A DNA stretch of 64,000 nt from Armatimonadia bacterium (GTDB lineage: Bacteria; Armatimonadota; Zipacnadia; Zipacnadales; JABUFB01): NCBI GenBank assembly GCA_039679385.1, contig JBDKVB010000138.1:62001-126000 (forward strand), read 5' to 3'. Position numbers and translations under genes: made by a program. This document shows, piece by piece, positions 1,990 through 53,178 of this stretch (the stretch's first letter is position 1; each line of letters opens with the position of its first letter). The notes beneath the pieces are model-generated. The model had not been told where the DNA came from, searched no databases, and saw only the letters and a program-made list of their open reading frames with translations.

Positions 1990-3090
1990 TCAGCGGCTTG
2001 CGTCGATCAGCAGTCCGAGACCGGCTCCGAGGAGGACGATGTTCGGAAGCCACGCGGCCAGCACCGGCGACATTGCACCTTGCTGACCGAAGGCTTGCAG
2101 GAAGTTGAAGATGATGTAGTACACGAACACCAGCGCCAGGGAGATGCCGAAGCCGATGCCGGTGGTGGCACGCTGCGGCCTCATCCCCAGCGGGAAGCCG
2201 AGAACCGCAAAGCAAAGCGCGGCCCAGGGCGTCGCAATACGGATATGGTAGTGCTGCGTCAGCCAGAGGGCGCGTTTGAGCTGTTGACTCCCAGGCTTTG
2301 CGTCGGGCATCAGCTTCGCGACCTCGGCCTTGAGCTGCGCCAGGGTGTACTCCTCGGGCCGACGCTCCGATCTGCGCCCGATATCCTCCGGTGTGCGGCC
2401 GATGTCACACATCACTTCCCGCAGACGGTCCTCACGGTAGCCCTTGCCCGTGTACTGGCGATGGACCACGTTCACCAGCTTCCACTGGGTGCCGACCCAT
2501 ACCGCGCGTTCAGCCGAGAACACCTGAGCGAGCTTCCCGTTGCGGAACTCGTTGATGGTAATGCCCAGCAGTTCGCGCTTCTCCGGGTTCAGCTTCAGGA
2601 CGATGATGGCACGTTCCGGTGTGCCCTCTTCGGGGAGGAAGTAGGAGATCGGTTTCTCGATCTTCTTCTGTTTGCTCAGAAAGTCCTGCAGCATGTTGCC
2701 GGCCGTGCTGTTGCACAGGGGAGACAGTGCCTCGTCGAAGGCGAAGGTAGCTATGGCTACGATGAGGCCGCAGACCATGACCGTGATGGCCATCCGTACA
2801 AGGCTCACACCCCCGGCGCGCATCGCCACCAGTTCACCATGGTTTGACAAGGCGCCGGCGGCCATCAGCGCAGCGAAGACCGTGGCCATGGGCATCGTCA
2901 GGGCCACAACCATTGGCACGTGGAGGAAGAAGTACTTGACGGCCAGGCCCACCGGCACGCCATCACGGACGACGAGTGAGACGGCATAGGAGATCTCGCT
3001 GACGCCCAGCAGAATCGCTGTGAAAGCGCCGACGCCGACGAAGAAGGGGCCCACGAAGTGGGCGGCGATGTAGCGGTCAATGATCTTCAT
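1990..3090 (-). CDS. lptG: LptF/LptG-family permease (YjgP/YjgQ), single copy
   Basis: 366 residues, the usual length for the family. It begins with MKIIDRYIAAHFVGPFFVG, the typical juxtamembrane helix of LptF/LptG, followed by TM segments near residues 15-35, 55-80 and 100-120. A periplasmic beta-jellyroll-like stretch follows (about 130-270), then three C-terminal TM segments (about 280-365). The permease extracts lipopolysaccharide from the inner membrane together with LptB and hands it to LptC. ATG 3090 has AGGA nine bases upstream. Only one permease gene is present in the cluster, as in cyanobacteria; either it forms a homodimer or a partner lies elsewhere. LptF and LptG cannot be distinguished, so the symbol is nominal. 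Confidence 0.85.
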   Translation of the reverse strand: MKIIDRYIAAHFVGPFFVGVGAFTAILLGVSEISYAVSLVVRDGVPVGLAVKYFFLHVPMVVALTMPMATVFAALMAAGALSNHGELVAMRAGGVSLVRMAITVMVCGLIVAIATFAFDEALSPLCNSTAGNMLQDFLSKQKKIEKPISYFLPEEGTPERAIIVLKLNPEKRELLGITINEFRNGKLAQVFSAERAVWVGTQWKLVNVVHRQYTGKGYREDRLREVMCDIGRTPEDIGRRSERRPEEYTLAQLKAEVAKLMPDAKPGSQQLKRALWLTQHYHIRIATPWAALCFAVLGFPLGMRPQRATTGIGFGISLALVFVYYIIFNFLQAFGQQGAMSPVLAAWLPNIVLLGAGLGLLIDASR

Positions 3091-3129
3091 TCAGTTGCTT
3101 CCTACGACGGTCTCGGCGCTGCGCTCGGC

Positions 3130-3849
3130 TCACATCTGGAACCGCTCACCCAGATAGAACTCCCGGGCAATCGGATCGTTGGGAAGATCCTCGGACTTAC
3201 CCTGGGTGCGGATCTGGCCTTCGGACATGATGTACGCGCGGTCGGTGATCCCGAGGGTCTCGCGAACGTTGTGGTCGGTGATGAGAATGCCAATATCCTC
3301 CTGGCGCAGATGCACCACGATGTCCTGGATGTCGGCGATGGCGATGGGGTCAACGCCGGTGAAAGGCTCATCGAGGAGGATGAAGGACGGATTGGTGCAC
3401 ATGGTGCGGGCGATCTCCACGCGGCGACGCTCGCCACCGGAGAGCACGACGCCCGTGGAGTCTGCCAGGTGCAGCAGCCCCAGCTTACCCAGCAGGCTAT
3501 CGGCGCGAGCCATGCGCTCCGCCTTCGACAGGTTCTGCAGCTCCAGGATCAGCAGCAGGTTCTCCCGGACAGTCAGCCGCCGGAAGACAGAGGGCTCCTG
3601 CGCCAGGTAGCCGAGTCCACGTCGGCAGCGCAGGTGCATGGGCAGGCTGGCGAGATCGACATTGTCCAGCAGGACCTTGCCGCCCTCAGACTGCACCAGG
3701 CCAAGGATCATGTAGAACGTGGTGGTCTTGCCTGCGCCATTGGGGCCCAGCAGGCCGACGATCTCGCCGCGGTCGACGTGGAGATCGACGCCCTTGACGA
3801 CCTGTCGTCCACGGTAGGTTTTCCTGAGGCCTTCAGCTATCAGTGCCAT
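3130..3849 (-). CDS. lptB: LPS export ABC transporter ATP-binding protein LptB
   Basis: 239 residues, matching the family length. Walker A GPNGAGKTTTFYMILG is near residue 35-50, the signature LSGGERRRVEIAR near 137-150, and Walker B FILLDEPFTGVDPIA follows directly. The switch histidine lies in ITDHNVRETL. This ATPase powers the Lpt bridge. ATG 3849 is chosen because the protein then starts MALIAEGLRKTYRG like other LptB proteins; the frame is open further upstream but that part is arginine/serine-rich antisense-like sequence overlapping lptA. It is in line with lptA (37-base gap) and the permease (39-base gap), consistent with one operon. Confidence 0.93.
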   Translation of the reverse strand: MALIAEGLRKTYRGRQVVKGVDLHVDRGEIVGLLGPNGAGKTTTFYMILGLVQSEGGKVLLDNVDLASLPMHLRCRRGLGYLAQEPSVFRRLTVRENLLLILELQNLSKAERMARADSLLGKLGLLHLADSTGVVLSGGERRRVEIARTMCTNPSFILLDEPFTGVDPIAIADIQDIVVHLRQEDIGILITDHNVRETLGITDRAYIMSEGQIRTQGKSEDLPNDPIAREFYLGERFQM

Positions 3850-3886
3850 GATGGGTTTCCGTCGGTGCCGGGCAGCCCGTCGGGAG

Positions 3887-4453
3887 CTACTGCCCCTTGG
3901 GTTGTCCGCCTTCTTGAGGTGCTGCGAACTCGGCTTCGATGCGGCCCTTCGAGACCTCGACGGTGAAGTCGGCCAGGTTGATCGTGACGGTCTCGCCACT
4001 GAAGGTAGCCGGTCCGGTCTCGGGCTCGGCCGGGATCGAGGTCATCTGTCCCTGGGCACCGCCGGTAAGGGTGATGGTCTTGGCGACGCCGGTGAAGGTG
4101 GCCTGGCCCTTGCAGCTAGCGACGATACGACGCTGGACGCCTGATTCGTCGGCGCGGACGGTCACGTCAAAGGACACGGGTCCGGAGGCGACGATCTCGC
4201 TGATCTGGGTGCCACCCTTGCCCACCTTGCCGAGCATCTTCGGTGCGGTCAACATGGCCTTGTCGGGGCCGGCGACGTCAACCCGGCAGTTGCCGTTGAA
4301 GTCCCAGGTGTTGGCCTTCCAGTTGTACTTCATCACGTCGGCCGTCACCACTGCCTGCTGCGTCTTCATCTCCTGGGCCGCCATGACTGCAACGGCTGCG
4401 AGGAGAAGGCAACCGGCGGTGAAGGCGGCTACCATCAGATGCCATCGTCTCAT
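3887..4453 (-). CDS. lptA: OstA/LptA-like periplasmic protein
   Basis: 188 residues with an N-terminal signal peptide (MRRWHLMVAAFTAGCLLLAA, cleavage likely after VMAAQ). The rest is beta-rich with repeated VTADVMKYNW and AMLTAPKMLG type strands, as in the OstA-like beta-jellyroll of LptA. It ends in a Gln/Gly/Pro-rich tail (PQEGGQPKGQ). LptA forms the periplasmic bridge for lipopolysaccharide. I chose ATG 4453 because GGAG lies about ten bases upstream and a clean signal peptide begins there; an ATG at 4483 and a TTG at 4498 are possible but less well placed. Sequence similarity to classical LptA looks modest, so the call rests on both pattern and neighbours. Confidence 0.75.
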   Translation of the reverse strand: MRRWHLMVAAFTAGCLLLAAVAVMAAQEMKTQQAVVTADVMKYNWKANTWDFNGNCRVDVAGPDKAMLTAPKMLGKVGKGGTQISEIVASGPVSFDVTVRADESGVQRRIVASCKGQATFTGVAKTITLTGGAQGQMTSIPAEPETGPATFSGETVTINLADFTVEVSKGRIEAEFAAPQEGGQPKGQ

Positions 4454-4502
4454 GCTCAACACACTCCGATCCTGTGTGGTCATACTCCCTTGCGTCAACG
4501 AG

Positions 4503-5435
4503 CTATCTGCGGATCCTTGTCGTCAGACGTGCACCACCCGAGAGTGTGGCGGTCGATGCCTCGCCGTCGACCACGAGGCGGCGCCCGGTTGCCGTGAAGC
4601 CGTTGCCGGTCAGGGCCACGTCGCCGGACAGTCGGGCTTGCTGGCTTAGCTTGCCGAAGAGTGCATCGCCGGCACGAGCGCTCAGGTCGCCCCGACTGAC
4701 TCTCACGGCGTTCGTGAGATGGACTTGCTGAGCCTCGGCATTGACGTGCACCGTATCGGCCCGGGCGACATAGTCACCGCGCTGCAGTCGTGCGCCGCCC
4801 GTCAGTGTGGCCTCACGGGTCGTCAGGTGTGCCACAGCCCTGCCGGCCGTCACGTGGTAGTCCTGGTACCCCAGGGCGACCGCGCCAACCAGGGTCACTT
4901 CGCGCCCCTGGCGGTCGAAGCCAAGGTCCTTGGACTTAAGGTCGTAGTCCCCCAGCCTTGCGATGACAGGCCCCGAAGCGTGGAGGTGCTCGGCCGCCAT
5001 GTCATACACGACCTGCGAGGCCTGGAAGGCAAAGGCTTCTCTGGTGCTCTCTGCCTTCACGCCCTTCGTCAGGGTCACGAGCTTGGCATGGTAGTCGGCG
5101 ACGAATTCGGGAGCCACGAGCTGCATCTGGGCGCCATCGGCCCGGGTCAGCTCCCAGGTCACGTTCTGACCACGAGCCACCATTTGCTCGCGGTCGAAGT
5201 CCATCTTGCCGGAGCTTTTGATCTGCCAGCGCAGGTTGCCCTTCTCGTCACGGTCAGTGGCCTCCAGGCCGCTGATCTTGAGACCGGCCTGATCCGGGGC
5301 CGTCCTGGCGGCAGAGGGTGCCGTGGTCTGCACCTTCGAGCGATCCGGGTTGCGCGAAGCGACGATGCCGACCACAAGGGCCACTGCGACCATGAGAACG
5401 GCGATCAGGGCGCCGTACCGGAACCTGAACTTCAT
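4503..5435 (-). CDS. lptC: LptC-like protein with C-terminal OstA-type region
   Basis: 310 residues, longer than the roughly 190 of E. coli LptC. MKFRFRYGALIAVLMVAVAL gives a single N-terminal membrane anchor. Residues 45-180 match an LptC domain (LKISGLEATDRDEKGNLRWQ, VAPEFVADYHAKLVTLTKG). The C-terminal 120 residues repeat beta-strand pairs such as VTAGRAVAHLTTREATLTGG and VARADTVHVNAEAQQVHLTN, which look like an OstA/LptA jellyroll. So this seems to combine membrane-anchored LptC with part of the bridge. It ends 50 bases before the lptA start. ATG 5435 is chosen for the membrane anchor; upstream open frame is antisense-like. Confidence 0.78.
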   Translation of the reverse strand: MKFRFRYGALIAVLMVAVALVVGIVASRNPDRSKVQTTAPSAARTAPDQAGLKISGLEATDRDEKGNLRWQIKSSGKMDFDREQMVARGQNVTWELTRADGAQMQLVAPEFVADYHAKLVTLTKGVKAESTREAFAFQASQVVYDMAAEHLHASGPVIARLGDYDLKSKDLGFDRQGREVTLVGAVALGYQDYHVTAGRAVAHLTTREATLTGGARLQRGDYVARADTVHVNAEAQQVHLTNAVRVSRGDLSARAGDALFGKLSQQARLSGDVALTGNGFTATGRRLVVDGEASTATLSGGARLTTRIRR

Positions 5436-45446: not shown

Positions 45447-46811
45447 TTAGTGGGAGCCTGTCTCGCTGGGGCTGAGCTCGGGCCAGTAGGCGTACTCGCC
45501 ATGCTGGCTCACGTCCAGACCGAGCTCCTCCTCCTCAGGGCTGACACGCAGACCGGCGACGAGGTCGATGGCCTTGAGGATGACAACCGAGGCAACGAAG
45601 CCGTAGACGAAGACCACAGCGATGGCCAGCACCTGCACGAGGAACTGCCGCGGGTTGCCGTAGAGCAGACCATCCGCCCCGGCGGGGTTGACCAGCTTCT
45701 GCGAGAAGATGCCGGTGGCCAGGGCTCCCCAGATTCCGCCCATTCCGTGGCAGGCGAAGACGTCAAGCGTGTCGTCCAGGGAAGTGCGGTTGAGCAGGAC
45801 GCAGGTGAAGTTGCACACCAGTCCGGCGACCATCCCGATCACGATGGCGGCGGAGACGTCAACGAACCCGGCGGCCGGAGTGATGGCGACCAGCCCGCAG
45901 ACGGCGCCGATTGCCGCACCTGTGGCGCTTGGCTTGCCGGTCAGGTACCAGTCCACAGCCATCCAACTCAGGGTGGCGAAGGCGGCAGCGATGTTGGTGG
46001 TCACGAGGGCATTCACGGCCACGCCATTGATCGCCAGCGCACTGCCCGCGTTGAAGCCAAACCAACCGAACCAGAGGAGCGCGGCACCGAGGATCGTGTA
46101 GGGAACGTTGTTCGGGTGCTGGGTCTCGCCCTTCACGTGGCGTCGACCGATGACCAGGGCCGAGGCAAGGGCTGAGGTTCCGGCGAGGATGTGGACTACC
46201 GTTCCGCCGGCGAAGTCGAGGGCACCGAGATTGCGCAGCCAGCCGCCGACGCCCCAAACCCAGTGAGCAACAGGCGCGTAGACCAGCGTCGCCCATACGA
46301 CGATGAACATGATAAGGGAGCGGAACTTGATGCGCTCGGCGAAGGCACCGATGATGAGTGCCGGGGTGATGGCCGCGAACTTGAGTTGGAAGAAGTAGAA
46401 GGCGGAGGCGGGGATGGTCGCGGCATAGTTCGTGTCGGGTGCACCGTCAACGCCCCGCAGCAGGAAGTGCTTGAGGCTCCCGATGAGGCCCAGACCGCCG
46501 ACTGAGGGTGCGAAGGCCAAGCTATAGCCCCACAGCGTCCAGACGGCGCTGGCGACGGCGAAGATCGTCAGGCATTGCACGATGGTCGAAGCGACGTTCT
46601 TGCGGCGGACAAGCCCTCCGTAGAAGAAGCCCAGTGCCGGCGTCATCAGCATGACCAGGACCGCCGCCACGCAGACCCAGGCCGTGTCTGCGGGGTTGAG
46701 CCCCTGGACGCCCTGCGCTGAGTTGGGCAACTCCCAGCGGCTCAGATAGGCCAGGGATACTGCCAGCGTGACTGTGAGCGTCCCGATGATGAGCATCTTT
46801 GTTCGTCGCAT
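45447..46811 (-). CDS. amt: Ammonium transporter
   Basis: 454 residues with the eleven-TM Amt plan after a cleavable or first hydrophobic segment. DTAWVCVAAVLVMLMTPALG starts the core, DFAGGTVVHILAGTSALASA carries the first pore His and VFACHGMGGIWGALATGIFS the second. The C-terminal tail (RVSPEEEELGLDVSQHGEYA) is the PII-responsive region. No glnK lies beside it in the window, although a C-terminal PII site suggests one elsewhere. The start ATG 46811 begins MRRTKMLIIGTLTVTLAVSL. Confidence 0.94.
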   Translation of the reverse strand: MRRTKMLIIGTLTVTLAVSLAYLSRWELPNSAQGVQGLNPADTAWVCVAAVLVMLMTPALGFFYGGLVRRKNVASTIVQCLTIFAVASAVWTLWGYSLAFAPSVGGLGLIGSLKHFLLRGVDGAPDTNYAATIPASAFYFFQLKFAAITPALIIGAFAERIKFRSLIMFIVVWATLVYAPVAHWVWGVGGWLRNLGALDFAGGTVVHILAGTSALASALVIGRRHVKGETQHPNNVPYTILGAALLWFGWFGFNAGSALAINGVAVNALVTTNIAAAFATLSWMAVDWYLTGKPSATGAAIGAVCGLVAITPAAGFVDVSAAIVIGMVAGLVCNFTCVLLNRTSLDDTLDVFACHGMGGIWGALATGIFSQKLVNPAGADGLLYGNPRQFLVQVLAIAVVFVYGFVASVVILKAIDLVAGLRVSPEEEELGLDVSQHGEYAYWPELSPSETGSH

Positions 46812-47011: not shown

Positions 47012-50000
47012 CTAGAAGAGGCCGAAGATGTCGTTGAGACTCCCCAGCATGTAGATGGCGTCGCGGATCAGGTTCCAGCCCAGTCCGCGCTTGGCCTTGG
47101 GGTAGGGGACGTAGATGATGTCTCCCGCCTTGACCTTGACGGGCTCGGGTGCCTTGCCCTGGGTGACGGCGCTGAGGCTGAAGTTGATGCGCTCCGAGGT
47201 GGCGTCCGGGCGCCGCCGGATGATGGTGATGTTGGCGCCGCTGGCTGCCGGGATCGGGTTGCCGGCGGCCGCTAGAGCATCGAGGATGTCCCAGTCGGGC
47301 TGCGCCGCATAGGCGCCCGCACGGCCGACTGCGCCGAGAACGTAGAGGTCGTCCAGCCTCGGCACAACCACCACGTCGCCGGGCTCGATCTTGACGTTCT
47401 GGCTCATGTCGCCTTCGTCCATGAGCAGCTTGAGGTCCTTGTACATCGGCGGCTCATCGCCGCGGAAGATCGTGATGCGGGTGAGGTCGGCCGCCGGAGT
47501 CGGCGCCAGAGCGGTGACGACCCGCAGCAGATCCTGGCTGCTGGGCTCGCGGACATTGACCGGACCGACGCGGCCGAGGGCACCCAGGAACATGGCATCG
47601 TGGGCGCTATCCTTCGGGACGTAGACGTAGTCGCCGGGCTCGAGGACGAGGTTCTGGGTCAGGTCGCCCTTCTCGACCAGGTTGCGGTAGTTGCGGACGA
47701 TCGTCTCGCCGTTGCGGTAGACGGTGACCTGCTCGGTGTCGCTGTTGGCATCAGGCGAGGCGAGAGGCAACAGGTGGGCGAGGTCGCGCTGCCGGAACTG
47801 GTGGATGTTCAGCGCTCCCGGGCGCGCTACCTGGCCCATGAAGACCACGGTGTCGGTGGACTCGGGCACGAACACAACGTCGCCCGCCTGCAGCGTCAGG
47901 TTCTGGGTCAGGTCGCCCTCTTCGCGGAGCTTCTGCAGGTCGCGGACGATCTTCTCAGTGCCGCGGTAGACGGTGACCTGGCTCAGGTCGGCGGTGGCGA
48001 CCAGGGGTCCGGCCAAAGTGACGGCGCTGAGCAGGTCCGGAGACTGGCCGAGGGCCAGAGGCAAGGTGCCCTGCCGGTTGACCTGCCCGCTGATGATGAT
48101 GCCGCCGGTGGCCGGCTGCTCAGGCACCAGCACGCGGTCGCCATCCTGGAGTTCGGTTGTCTGCGAGCCATCGCCCTTCTCGAGGTAGGCGCGCAGGTTG
48201 TAGGTGGTAGCGGTGGCGCCACGGTAGAGGATGATCCGACTCAAGTCGGCCGTGGGCAGCGGACTCGCGCTGACGACGAAGCTCGCGAGGTTGCGCTGCT
48301 CTGCGGTCACCAGCTCCGCCGTGCCGGTGCGCTGGACCGATCCGGTGACGAGGACCGTTGTGGTATCCAGGCCGGGGACGAAGACGCGGTCGCCAGGCAG
48401 CAGCGGCACATTCCGCGGCAGATCACCACCCGAACGCAGGGCGGAGAGGTCGTAGGTAAGCTGCTGATCGCCGCGATAGACAATAACCCGGCGCAGGTCG
48501 GCCGTGGGCAGCGGAGACGCCGCGCTGATGACCTCGGCGAGATCGGCACGCTCGGGATCGGGCACGCCGATGCTCCCGGCTCGCGCGACTGCGCCGGTGA
48601 TCATGGCCGTCTCGCGGTCATAGGGGATGAGCACGACGTCGCCGTCTTCGAGCTCCAGGGTCTGGGTCTTGTCACCCTTCTGCAGGTAGGCGAAGACGTC
48701 GCGGGTGATCGTCTGGTTGCCGCGCAGGACGCTGACCTTGCGCAGGTTGGCGTAGGGCAGCGGCGAGGCCATCTGCACGATCCGCACGAGGTCGCGGGCT
48801 TCCTTCTCGCCCAGGGCTGCAGCGCCGAGGCGCCCAGCAGCACCGGCAATGAGGATCCTATCCTCGAAGGCCGGGATCTTGACGATGTCGCCGTCCTGCA
48901 GCAGCATCGTCTGGGACAGGTCGCCGGTGTCGTAGAGCTTGCGCAGGTCGCGGACGATCGTCTGATCGCCACGGTAGATGGTGACCTTGGACAGGTCGGC
49001 GTTCGGCGTCGGTCCGGCGAGGACGACGACCCGCATCAGGTCGCGTTGCTTGTCCTCGTAGAGCTGCAGTGTCCCGGCGCGGACCACGGCGCCCATGACA
49101 AGGACCGTGCTTTCGCCGCGCGGCACAACCACCACATCGCCGTCTTCGACCTGCAGGGTGTGCTGCGGCAAGGCGGTGTCGATGTAGGCCTTGATGTCGC
49201 GGGTAGTGGTGAGGCCACCGCGTCGGACGGCCACCTTGCTCAGGTCGGCATTGGGAAGAGGACCGGCAGCAGAGACCAGTCGGGCCAGGTCGCGCTGCTT
49301 GTCATCGATCAGGTTGATCAGACCGGGTCGGCCGAGGGCCCCGGTGAGAAGGACGGTGTGGATCTGGCGCGGCGGCACGGTGATGATGTCACCCGGCTGG
49401 AGTTCCATGGTCTGGGAGCGATCGCCGCCCTCAACCATCGCGCGCAGGTTGCGAACCGTCTTCTGCTCACCGCGGAAGATTGTCACGTGCTCCATGTCGG
49501 CCATGGCAGTCGGTCCGGCGGCGAGTACGAGAGAGATGAGGTCGCGGTCGAGGCCCTCATAGAGGCGGACGACGCCACCGCGGTTCAGGGCACCGGTGAT
49601 GAGGATGCTGTCCTCGACCATCGGGACGCGGACCATGTCGCCGTCTTGGAGCCGCAGTGTCTGGCGAGCATCCCCCTTGTCCAGGTAGTCGCGGACGTTC
49701 ACCACGATCTTCTCTGCGCCGCGGGTGACGGTGACCCTGGACAGGTCGGCGACTCCCAGCGGCCCGGAGAGGAGGATGAGCTTGGACAGGTCGCGCTGCT
49801 CGTCGCCGATCAGGCGGACGATGCCGCTCCGCTGTACGGCGCCGGTGAGGACCACGCTCTCCTCGATGGGCGGGACGTAGATGACGTCGCCGTCCTCGAC
49901 CTCGATGCTCTGCTGGAGGTCGCCCTTCTCAAGCGCGGCCTTCATGTCGCGCACGATGGTCTGGCCGCCGCGGTAGATGGTGACCCGAGACAGGTCGGAC

Positions 50001-51544
50001 ATGGCCCCGGCACCGGCGACGGTGATGACCCGCAGCAAGTCGTGCGGGTCCTTGCGCAGGACCTGAAACACGCCCTGGCGGGCGAGCATGCCAGTAAGGA
50101 GGACCGAGTCGACCTCCAGCGGTGGCACCATGACCATGTCGCCGGGTTCGAGGTCGAGGTTCTGGCTCAGGTCGCCGGTGTCCATCATGGCCTTGAGGTT
50201 GCGCACGAGAGCCTGGTTGCCGCGGTAGACGGTGACGCGGGTCAGGTCGGACTGGGCGACCGGTCCGGCGAGGGTGATGACCCGTAGCAAGTCACGCTGG
50301 TCGACGCCTCGCAGTGGGAAGATGCCGGTTCGGCCCAGTACGCCAACGAGGAGCACGTTCTGGCCCTCGCCACGGGGGATGAGCAGGACATCGCCGGGCT
50401 GGAGGTTGAACTCAGCCGGAGCCGTCCCCTTGTCCATGAAGGTCTGCAGGTCGACCGTGATGCCCTTGCCGTTGCGGATGATCTGGGCCTGGGAGAGGTC
50501 ACCGGTGGGGAGTGGACCTCCGGCCTGCGCAAGAGCCTGGAGGACGGGCACGGCGCCACCCGCCGGGAGGACCCAGGGCGTCCGCACCTGGCCCACCACA
50601 GCGATGCCGCCGGTCTGCGGAACGACGAGGACGTCGCCGCCCTGCAGCTTGCGGTTCTCGGTAGTGTCGCCGCCCTGGAGGAGCTTGCCCAGGTCAATCT
50701 GAACGGGCTCGGAACCCTCGCGCAGGAGCAGGGCACGCGTGCGGTCGGCAACCGGTGTGAAGCCCTGGGCGACCCGCAGCGCGTCGAGGACCGTCACGTC
50801 CTGCCCCACGGGCAGCAGGACAGTTCCGGGGTTGCGGACCTCGCCGAAGATGGAGATCTCCTCGCGCACTCGCGGGGCGAAGATGGTATCGCCATACTCG
50901 AGCCTGTGCTCGATGGGAAGCGGACCCTCGCCGCGAAGACCGCTGCAATCAACCTCGACCGGCTGGCCGCCGGGATGGGTGAGACGGATGCGGCGCAGGT
51001 CGGCGTAAGGTCCGGGTGGGACTGCGGAAAGGGCGTCGACGAGGGTGGCTCCGAAGGGCAAGGTTACGGCGCCGGTGCGCATCATCTCACCGGAGAGGTA
51101 TACCTTGCGCACGGAGGAGAGTTCGTTGAAGGTGATCGTGACCTGCGGGTTGCGCAGGATCTGGCGCAACTTGGTGGTGACCAGTTGCTCGGCTTCGTGG
51201 ATGGTGAGGCCGCGCAGGGTGATCTGGCCGACGATGGGCATGGCTATGGAGCCCGCCGGGCCGATCGCAAAGGTGCCGGACTGCGTGGGCTCGCCGAAGA
51301 CGACGAGCTGGATGACGTCGCCGGGGCTGAGGCGGTACCCCGCATCGACGGTGAGACGAGGAGAAGACAGCGGCCCGGGATGCGCCCCCGTAGTTGCGGG
51401 GTCGATCGAGCGCTCGGAGGGGAGAGCCCCGTAACCCCCCTGGGAATCGGTCTTGAGACCCGCCGCCGGCGCCAGGGTCGCTATGCCAGACAGGACAGCG
51501 ATTGCGGCGGCCAAGCGGAACAGGGGGATCAGCTTACGCGACAT
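47012..51544 (-). CDS. Giant Wza-like polysaccharide export protein with about 16 tandem SLBB domains
   Basis: 1510 residues, about four times a usual Wza. MSRKLIPLFRLAAAIAVLSG with cleavage near PAAG is a signal peptide and has no lipobox Cys. Residues 69-140 are the polysaccharide export sequence (GYRLSPGDVIQLVVFGEPTQ, VTTKLRQILRNPQVTI). From about 145 to 1484, 16 SLBB units of about 82 residues follow, each with VLLTGALGRPGxxxL, RDLLRVITLAG, ADLSRVTVYRG, VRDLKALxEKGDLSQ and LxxGDVVxVP. The C-terminus (GLGWNLIRDAIYMLGSLNDI) could be an amphipathic membrane helix. It probably forms a ring stack for glycan export. GGGAGG lies eight bases before ATG 51544. A stacking height is inference. Confidence 0.9.
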   Translation of the reverse strand: MSRKLIPLFRLAAAIAVLSGIATLAPAAGLKTDSQGGYGALPSERSIDPATTGAHPGPLSSPRLTVDAGYRLSPGDVIQLVVFGEPTQSGTFAIGPAGSIAMPIVGQITLRGLTIHEAEQLVTTKLRQILRNPQVTITFNELSSVRKVYLSGEMMRTGAVTLPFGATLVDALSAVPPGPYADLRRIRLTHPGGQPVEVDCSGLRGEGPLPIEHRLEYGDTIFAPRVREEISIFGEVRNPGTVLLPVGQDVTVLDALRVAQGFTPVADRTRALLLREGSEPVQIDLGKLLQGGDTTENRKLQGGDVLVVPQTGGIAVVGQVRTPWVLPAGGAVPVLQALAQAGGPLPTGDLSQAQIIRNGKGITVDLQTFMDKGTAPAEFNLQPGDVLLIPRGEGQNVLLVGVLGRTGIFPLRGVDQRDLLRVITLAGPVAQSDLTRVTVYRGNQALVRNLKAMMDTGDLSQNLDLEPGDMVMVPPLEVDSVLLTGMLARQGVFQVLRKDPHDLLRVITVAGAGAMSDLSRVTIYRGGQTIVRDMKAALEKGDLQQSIEVEDGDVIYVPPIEESVVLTGAVQRSGIVRLIGDEQRDLSKLILLSGPLGVADLSRVTVTRGAEKIVVNVRDYLDKGDARQTLRLQDGDMVRVPMVEDSILITGALNRGGVVRLYEGLDRDLISLVLAAGPTAMADMEHVTIFRGEQKTVRNLRAMVEGGDRSQTMELQPGDIITVPPRQIHTVLLTGALGRPGLINLIDDKQRDLARLVSAAGPLPNADLSKVAVRRGGLTTTRDIKAYIDTALPQHTLQVEDGDVVVVPRGESTVLVMGAVVRAGTLQLYEDKQRDLMRVVVLAGPTPNADLSKVTIYRGDQTIVRDLRKLYDTGDLSQTMLLQDGDIVKIPAFEDRILIAGAAGRLGAAALGEKEARDLVRIVQMASPLPYANLRKVSVLRGNQTITRDVFAYLQKGDKTQTLELEDGDVVLIPYDRETAMITGAVARAGSIGVPDPERADLAEVISAASPLPTADLRRVIVYRGDQQLTYDLSALRSGGDLPRNVPLLPGDRVFVPGLDTTTVLVTGSVQRTGTAELVTAEQRNLASFVVSASPLPTADLSRIILYRGATATTYNLRAYLEKGDGSQTTELQDGDRVLVPEQPATGGIIISGQVNRQGTLPLALGQSPDLLSAVTLAGPLVATADLSQVTVYRGTEKIVRDLQKLREEGDLTQNLTLQAGDVVFVPESTDTVVFMGQVARPGALNIHQFRQRDLAHLLPLASPDANSDTEQVTVYRNGETIVRNYRNLVEKGDLTQNLVLEPGDYVYVPKDSAHDAMFLGALGRVGPVNVREPSSQDLLRVVTALAPTPAADLTRITIFRGDEPPMYKDLKLLMDEGDMSQNVKIEPGDVVVVPRLDDLYVLGAVGRAGAYAAQPDWDILDALAAAGNPIPAASGANITIIRRRPDATSERINFSLSAVTQGKAPEPVKVKAGDIIYVPYPKAKRGLGWNLIRDAIYMLGSLNDIFGLF
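47093..51112 (-). repeat. Array of about 16 tandem SLBB-coding units
   Basis: Coding repeat of about 246 bases per unit inside the export gene. Units 4 to 15 (from the N-terminus) are nearly equal in length and close in sequence; the first three and the last diverge. Each unit ends in a GDxVxVP turn. At DNA level the segment encoding RVTVYRG and DLSK recurs (for example GACCTGxGCAAGGTC-type blocks), hinting at expansion by internal duplication. Confidence 0.88.
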
Positions 51545-51906: not shown

Positions 51907-53178
51907 ATGTCTGAGAAACTCGCAATCGACGGCGGGACCCCCGTCAACAGTCAGCCCTTCCCACCGTGGCCCTACTTCACGGAAGAGATGATCCAGGCGG
52001 CCATGGAGCCCCTGCGCACTGGGAAGGTCAACTACTGGACCGGCAAGGCCGGGATGGAGTTCGAGCAGAAGTTTGCCGACTGGGTCGGCACGAAGTTCGG
52101 AATCTCGACCACTAACGGGACAAGTGCCCTGCACGTAGCTCTGGCGGGGCTTGGCATCGGCCCCGGCGACGAAGTGATCACGCCTTCGTATACCTTCATC
52201 GCCTCGAGCTTCTGCGTGCTCCAGGCGGGCGCTGTCCCTGTGTTCGCTGATGTGGACCGCGAGACGCACACCATCTCCCCGGAAAGCATCGAGGAGAAGA
52301 TCAGCTCCCGCACCAAGGCCATCATTGCCGTCCACCTGTATGGTGTGATGTGTGATATGGGCCCGATCCTGGAGATCGCCAAGAAGCACAACCTGTACGT
52401 GATCGAGGACTGTGCGCAGGCTCACGGTGGCGTGTACAAGGGCAAGAAGGCGGGCTCCCTGGGCCACTGCAACGCCTTCAGCTTCTGTCAGTCCAAGCAC
52501 TTCACCACCGGCGGCGAGGGTGGCTGCACGGTGACGGACAACGAGGACGTTGCCTGGACCTGCCGCTCCTTCCGGGACCACGGCTATGACGTATCCGAGC
52601 GGCTGAGGCTGCTGGAGATGGAGGCCAAGCTTCCGTATATCCACAAGATGTGGGGCTACAACTACCGGATGACGGAAATGCAGTCGGCGATCGGCCTGGA
52701 GTGCCTGAAGATTCTCGACTCGTGGAACCTGGCGAACCGGCGTCGCAACGCGGCCATCCTGGACGAGGCGCTGGAGGACGAGCCCTACATCTGGCGGCTG
52801 CCGCTGAACACGGCCGAACGTCAGAATGCCTACTGGCTGTACCCGATCGTCTTGGACACCGACCGGCTGACGGTAGACGCGCGCCAGTTCTTCAAGGCAG
52901 TGGACGCCGAGGGCGTTCCGGCCGGTCCGGTCCTGTGGCCCCAGTGTTACAAGGAGAAGGCGTATCAGGACCACGTGGGTCCCAGCCACCTGCAGTACCC
53001 CTTCCGCGACCTGCATACGCGGCCTGAGGCGGTCAACTACACCAAAGAGCATTGCCCGAACGCTGCCTGGCTGGAGGAGCGGACCTTCTTCACCAGCCTG
53101 CACCCGACCTACGAGGCGTCGCACATGGAGCGCATCGCCGAGGCCATTCGTAAGGTGGGTAAGGCCTACAGCAAGTAG
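51907..53178 (+). CDS. DegT/DnrJ/EryC1-type sugar aminotransferase
   Basis: 423 residues. The PLP-dependent fold is shown by GISTTNGTSALHVALAGLGI, EVITPSYTFIASSFCVLQAG, VDRETHTISPESIEE, IIAVHLYGVMCDM and VIEDCAQAHGG. The Schiff-base lysine is in FSFCQSKHFTTGGEGG, and YNYRMTEMQSAIGLECL follows. Members add an amino group to keto-sugar nucleotides for surface glycans or antibiotics. GGGAGG lies nine bases before ATG 51907. It diverges from the giant export gene, which supports a surface-glycan role; the exact sugar is unknown. Confidence 0.9.
   Translation: MSEKLAIDGGTPVNSQPFPPWPYFTEEMIQAAMEPLRTGKVNYWTGKAGMEFEQKFADWVGTKFGISTTNGTSALHVALAGLGIGPGDEVITPSYTFIASSFCVLQAGAVPVFADVDRETHTISPESIEEKISSRTKAIIAVHLYGVMCDMGPILEIAKKHNLYVIEDCAQAHGGVYKGKKAGSLGHCNAFSFCQSKHFTTGGEGGCTVTDNEDVAWTCRSFRDHGYDVSERLRLLEMEAKLPYIHKMWGYNYRMTEMQSAIGLECLKILDSWNLANRRRNAAILDEALEDEPYIWRLPLNTAERQNAYWLYPIVLDTDRLTVDARQFFKAVDAEGVPAGPVLWPQCYKEKAYQDHVGPSHLQYPFRDLHTRPEAVNYTKEHCPNAAWLEERTFFTSLHPTYEASHMERIAEAIRKVGKAYSK

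Follow-up and report, generated by a model that had tools for sequence, protein, structure and literature searches.

A gene on the minus strand of a 64,000-nucleotide stretch of DNA from an Armatimonadota bacterium (referred to here as the window) encodes a giant OPX protein of 1510 residues (47012..51544; ATG at 51544, stop at 47012) in which a single Poly_export (PES) domain is followed by exactly 16 SLBB units. Tandem multi-SLBB architecture is in itself already known, with proteins of 1–14 SLBBs published (PMC9603273). What is new is that a count of 16 is stable in three separately amplified paralogues, that the array derives from a five-unit protein, that no short OPX protein is apparent in the genome, and that TamB and MlaD have lengthened in parallel. 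The giant is probably an OPX conduit for Wzx/Wzy-type export built from about 17 stacked rings.

The domains were assigned with sequence profiles. The PES domain (residues 67–139; 51128..51346, minus strand) matches PF02563 with 68.5 bits against a cut-off of 28 (E 5.8e-19) and is connected to Wza by phmmer (E 1e-15). The Pfam model SLBB_2 finds 16 stretches in the protein (E 1.5e-96), whereas the older SLBB model PF10531 recognizes only 6 of the 16 units. Searching with a profile of the giant's own units gives 16 contiguous units over residues 142–1480 without a gap, each with E ≤ 9e-22, these values being self-inclusive and those from Pfam independent. Unit borders were placed at a recurring unit end, GD-x-hydrophobic-x-x-P; cutting there leaves one unit within the N-terminal part and fifteen after it with nothing intervening, a period of 81–86 residues, and a mean pairwise identity of 39% among units 3–14. 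The initial annotation had read one PES domain and about 16 SLBB units in 1510 residues and had proposed counting them with PF02563 and PF10531; its reading stands, with the PES domain found as expected and the full count supplied by SLBB_2.

The two ends of the protein are also informative. The protein probably begins with an ordinary Sec (SPI) signal peptide that has no lipobox cysteine (approximately residues 1–28; 51461..51544, minus strand), and the sole cysteine is residue 200, with none near the N-terminus, so the loss of the lipobox noted earlier is confirmed. Residues 1481–1510 (47015..47104, minus strand) are predicted to form an amphipathic helix (hydrophobic moment 0.48, shuffle p 0.017), and the C-terminal tails of relatives resemble this one. 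No match to Wza_C (PF18412) appeared in the Pfam search at E values up to 10. The XrtA/PEP-CTERM OPX model TIGR03027 scores 305 bits against a cut-off of 180, a sum inflated by 11 repeated stretches.

Several artifactual explanations were rejected. Both Pfam and the own-unit profile resolve the 16 SLBB units, which disposes of a chance or low-complexity repeat, and an assembly artifact is countered by the divergence of the units and by orthologues in the family's other assemblies, which at about 59% identity match it in both the number and the order of the 16 units. Pfam matches to JmjC/cupin models were taken as spurious, as they are short and lie over the GD-x-hydrophobic-P motif of the SLBB units, several of them exceeding the cut-off solely as repeat sums. 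The plus strand of the gene interval is interrupted by stops, and a plus-strand frame of 895 residues antisense to the repeat array (47600–50287) was taken as the shadow of a GC-rich gene.

With its Poly_export domain, SLBBs after the PES, SLBB beta-grasp fold, and PCP partner in the genome, the protein is a member of the OPX superfamily. It is filed as an OPX protein only and not under OPX Class 1, because the lipoprotein signal of that class is absent, there being no cysteine near the N-terminus. Like E. coli Wza (OPX Class 1; PDB 2J58, 9R60), it runs from PES through SLBB units to a C-terminal amphipathic helix, which the initial annotation had mistaken for a difference from Wza, and it shares the SLBB fold and, for one modeled pair, the packing of neighboring units. 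Unlike Wza, which has two SLBBs and an N-terminal lipoprotein signal, the giant has 16 and no lipobox, leaves the Wza_C profile unmatched, and is encoded outside a capsule operon. The supposed limit of two or three SLBBs in known relatives proved wrong or overstated, since the published Poly_export-SLBB(1–14)-Wza_C proteins share the many-SLBB architecture and Armatimonadota OPX proteins examined elsewhere in the phylum have 3–11 units; the 16 seen here lies above the reported range. That survey counted SLBBs with PF10531 (PMC9603273), and the published counts may be too low because this model detects so few of the giant's units. Class 3 OPX proteins such as M. xanthus WzaB (PDB 9N9A; PMC9601211, PMC9603273) likewise combine PES and SLBB with no Wza_C match, but they are short (median 256 residues) and have a beta-barrel partner, whereas the direct neighbors of the giant's gene encode a DegT enzyme and an ammonium transporter.

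How an array of this size arose can be approached by comparing the source genome with three others of the same GTDB family (G001, G002, G003), which together contain three giant paralogues: A (the protein at 47012–51544), B, and C. Wherever the whole gene is readable, the count is 16 (A in G002 and G003, B in G002 and G003, C in G002 and G001), with the exception of C in the source genome, which has 13. In a tree of individual units, internal units cluster by paralogue, with support of 100/99 for A4–15, 97/97 for B2–14, and a weaker 94/78 for most internal units of C, and within each paralogue most units group by array position across genera; the alignment has few columns and the bootstrap is unsettled. 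Because the units cluster first by paralogue and then by position, each paralogue's array apparently underwent its own amplification or homogenization ahead of the divergence of the genera and has stayed almost fixed from then on. The source-genome C, in which units 4, 5, and 6 pair with units 9, 10, and 11 as a block duplication, has a different history.

Five-unit OPX proteins of 560–579 residues from neighboring Armatimonadota families (L056, L061, L062) show the starting point of array A. They are unit-by-unit homologues of A with a similar tail. Against profiles of the A units, their units 1, 2, 3, and 5 correspond to unit 1 (residues 142–224; 50873..51121), unit 2 (225–309; 50618..50872), unit 3 (310–390; 50375..50617), and unit 16 (1396–1480; 47105..47359), all on the minus strand and all delimited by the unit profile; the mapping of unit 2 is ambiguous in one of the three relatives. 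Unit 4, which is single in these proteins, finds its best match in A4–15 (391–1395; 47360..50374, minus strand), with 82–105 bits. By this mapping, giant A came from a five-unit ancestor through roughly twelvefold multiplication of unit 4. Another OPX type is also common in the Armatimonadota: proteins of about 900–1,150 residues, usually extended N-terminally ahead of the PES and carrying 8 SLBB units (up to 11), of which the next-to-last are weak (L024–L029, L031, L032, L044–L050, L060, L063). Five-unit and 8-unit OPX proteins are found together in one order, often in one genome, so that unit number is not a strict ruler.

The nearest named relatives are Armatimonadota MAGs, one labeled Candidatus Zipacnadia, a class of uncultured sediment bacteria (PMC10290634); an alignment-based scan found two relatives. 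The source genome has a size of 5.6 Mb and is 97% complete. Exactly two Poly_export proteins were detected in it, both giant; the second, with 1251 residues, a GTG start, and 13 SLBB units, lies on contig 117 (L009:2016-5771). In an assembly that is not quite complete, these are the only Poly_export proteins detected, and thus OPX-dependent export in this organism, if running, must use giant OPX proteins. The genome also encodes two Wzz-type proteins (PCPs), which at 654 and 706 residues are of ordinary length and have BY-kinase/autokinase-type ATPase domains; one of them adjoins a Wzx-type flippase and a glycosyltransferase. The search for the same architecture in other genomes, which the initial annotation had suggested as a check, gave 3–11 units elsewhere in the phylum and 16 wherever a whole giant could be read in the other genomes of the family. 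The conserved count, the amplification of a single unit, the confinement of the genome's OPX proteins to giants, and the joint lengthening of TamB and MlaD go beyond that annotation.

Gene A itself is located outside any polysaccharide cluster. Its divergent neighbor encodes a DegT/DnrJ/EryC1 sugar aminotransferase (51907..53178, plus strand; PF01041, E 5e-100) with no proven OPX link, and its downstream neighbor an ammonium transporter (45447..46811, minus strand; PF00909, E 1.6e-124) that is not part of the system. In the relative G002, the genes after giant paralogue B on its strand encode a PCP-like protein (similar to TIGR03007, with a score under the cut-off), a BY-type kinase, a Wzx-type flippase, and a Wzy_C protein, and the C giant lies near a bacterial sugar transferase (PF02397). 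Elsewhere in the window are LPS-export genes (1990..5435, minus strand) for an LptF/G-like permease (208 bits, under the cut-off of 240), LptB (345 bits), and a 310-residue LptC/LptA-like protein (LptC, 53.6 bits), the latter two over cut-off, and because of these genes the organism is very likely a diderm with an LPS-type outer membrane. A further 182-residue gene among them (3887–4435) matched no NCBIfam model.

Structure prediction brings the units closer to Wza. In an AlphaFold2 model of units 4–9 (pLDDT 73.8, pTM 0.34), a single unit superposes on the Wza-family chain 7xfd at 1.3 Å over 81 residues (VIA-align, Z 15), so that the SLBB fold is well supported for the modeled units (Z 12.8–15 against Wza chains), as the initial annotation had supposed for the repeats in general. 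Two adjacent modeled units superpose on Wza SLBB1 and SLBB2 over 162 residues at 4.0 Å (VIA-align, Z 12.8–14.0). In the model this packing, which holds for one pair, is the arrangement that extending a Wza-like stack would require. It makes the long stack envisaged in the annotation plausible, and a stack of 16 rings is not thereby shown. The PES-containing model is poor (pLDDT 59), yet Foldseek ranks Wza first. Given the low pTM and the poor PES model, the global shape of the giant is a prediction only.

In the most likely arrangement, several chains would stand side by side, as in octameric Wza, with each domain forming one ring. The PES ring would face the inner-membrane co-polymerase (PCP), the 16 SLBB rings would line up as a long conduit through the periplasm, and the amphipathic helices at the C-terminus would touch or cross the outer membrane. 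At the roughly 3 nm per ring of Wza, 17 rings would make a conduit of about 50 nm, compared with about 10 nm in Wza. Oligomerization, straight stacking over all 16 units, direction, and the exported polymer are inferred. Counted in favor of this conduit are the PES with 16 SLBBs, the Wza-like pair packing, the two PCPs beside two giants as the only Poly_export proteins found, the Wzx/Wzy operon of paralogue B, the five-unit mapping, the three 16-unit paralogues, the long TamB and MlaD, and the LPS-export genes; counted against it are the pTM of 0.34, the poor PES model, the unmatched Wza_C, the position of gene A outside a polysaccharide cluster, the unlengthened efflux adaptors and most TolC-like proteins, and a unit number that is no strict ruler.

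The SLBB domain was named after soluble-ligand binding, and the array might instead act as a glycan- or peptidoglycan-binding chain, flexible or superhelical in shape, that tethers the envelope and makes no ring-stacked channel. The lack of confidence in the long-range geometry (the same pTM) and the isolation of gene A from polysaccharide genes would suit such a tether. It is nonetheless unlikely, given the presence of a PES, the finding that the giants are the only OPX-type proteins in a genome that also has two PCPs, the place of paralogue B in a Wzx/Wzy operon, and a neighboring unit pair that packs like Wza.

The ring-stacked conduit carries a consequence for the depth of the envelope. 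Rings of Wza measure about 30 Å each and its periplasmic part about 100 Å (PMC9601211), and the solved Wza-Wzc complex is about 360 Å long, of which Wza accounts for 140 (PMC12881504). The E. coli periplasm is about 26 nm deep (PMC11014939). Seventeen rings, at about 51 nm, exceed this, which leaves a deep envelope, a bent stack, or no stack at all. Other trans-envelope proteins were measured for this reason. TamB, taken as stop-to-stop frames so that true genes are slightly shorter, has 4,300 residues in G002 (L064:1684-14583) and 4,365 in G001 (L066:3704-16798), the longest in the phylum sample, and at least 2,882 in the source genome, where the contig ends (L065:1-8646); most intact members of the order have about 1,750, and the rest of the phylum sample reaches 2,910. 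Likewise, MlaD frames with a C-terminal barrel-like region (L067:1355-3745, L068:2800-5463, L069:1113-3848) have 797–912 residues in the family versus mostly 490–610 in the class (outliers 658, 672, and a few shorter). The surplus, about 250–350 residues over two other order members, sits within the stalk that links the MCE domain to the conserved C-terminal barrel-like region. In a model, a 419-residue Veillonella MlaD of like build spans 23.5 nm of a 24.2-nm periplasm (PMC10665443). The PCPs and the Omp85 protein beside TamB (641 residues) are of normal size, which rules out a general inflation of genes.

Other rulers do not follow. Efflux adaptors show no lengthening, with frames mostly of 540–760 residues in the family versus 510–720 in the order, and TolC-like proteins in the family are mostly of unremarkable length, which disfavors a uniformly deep periplasm. 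TonB_C went undetected in 39 of the 46 genomes of the class, all four of this GTDB family included. Across the phylum, OPX and TamB lengths give a family-level Spearman coefficient of 0.77 (0.74 without this GTDB family), a value not relied on, having been obtained after a post hoc omission of OPX frames of ≥ 850 residues outside the family (N-extended, mostly 8-unit); when each genome was represented by its longest OPX, the coefficient from family means, this GTDB family excluded, was 0.34 (p 0.10). Genomes in which a contig end truncated TamB were also removed by hand.

That the length of the giants matches an unusually deep periplasm in this GTDB family is thus a tentative reading, held at somewhat short of an even chance. 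Marginally less secure is the fuller version, in which the periplasm, at some 50 nm or more, would have about two to three times the depth of that in relatives, and several machines spanning the envelope would have been re-scaled together: the OPX proteins by amplification of SLBB rings to 16 in each of three paralogues, TamB by growth to about 4,300 residues, and MlaD by a stalk some 250–350 residues longer. With the efflux adaptors and TolC-like proteins speaking against it, a deep periplasm is possibly the case, a testable possibility rather than a conclusion.

The unlengthened adaptors are what would be expected if the periplasm were of normal depth and the extra rings pointed outward, making a stalk on the cell surface that projects past the outer membrane or crosses a surface layer. 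Such a stalk is quite improbable, as the membrane-seeking helix is C-terminal to all SLBB units, as in Wza, and TamB and MlaD, which lie inside the envelope, are also longer. The recurrence of 16 and its numerical coincidence with the Wza octamer (16 = 2 x 8) could suggest one chain closing into one or two pseudo-octameric rings as a single-chain channel, an arrangement made very improbable by the axial, Wza-like packing of the modeled pair and by the 13 units of the source-genome paralogue and the 4, 5, or 8 of relatives.

How export channels span the space between two membranes, and whether the size of trans-envelope machines follows the depth of the envelope, are questions hard to address when most studied bacteria have similar periplasms. 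The E. coli counterpart uses the SLBB module twice, and the OPX proteins of the source bacterium use it 13 to 16 times; multiplication of one unit about twelvefold within a conserved frame illustrates a route by which such channels can be lengthened. If the stacking model is true, the family would provide natural OPX channels of 13 and 16 units, with five-unit relatives for comparison, together with a sharp prediction of envelope depth that could be checked by one tomogram. The giant OPX proteins and the long TamB and MlaD hint that the envelope of these bacteria is unusually deep.
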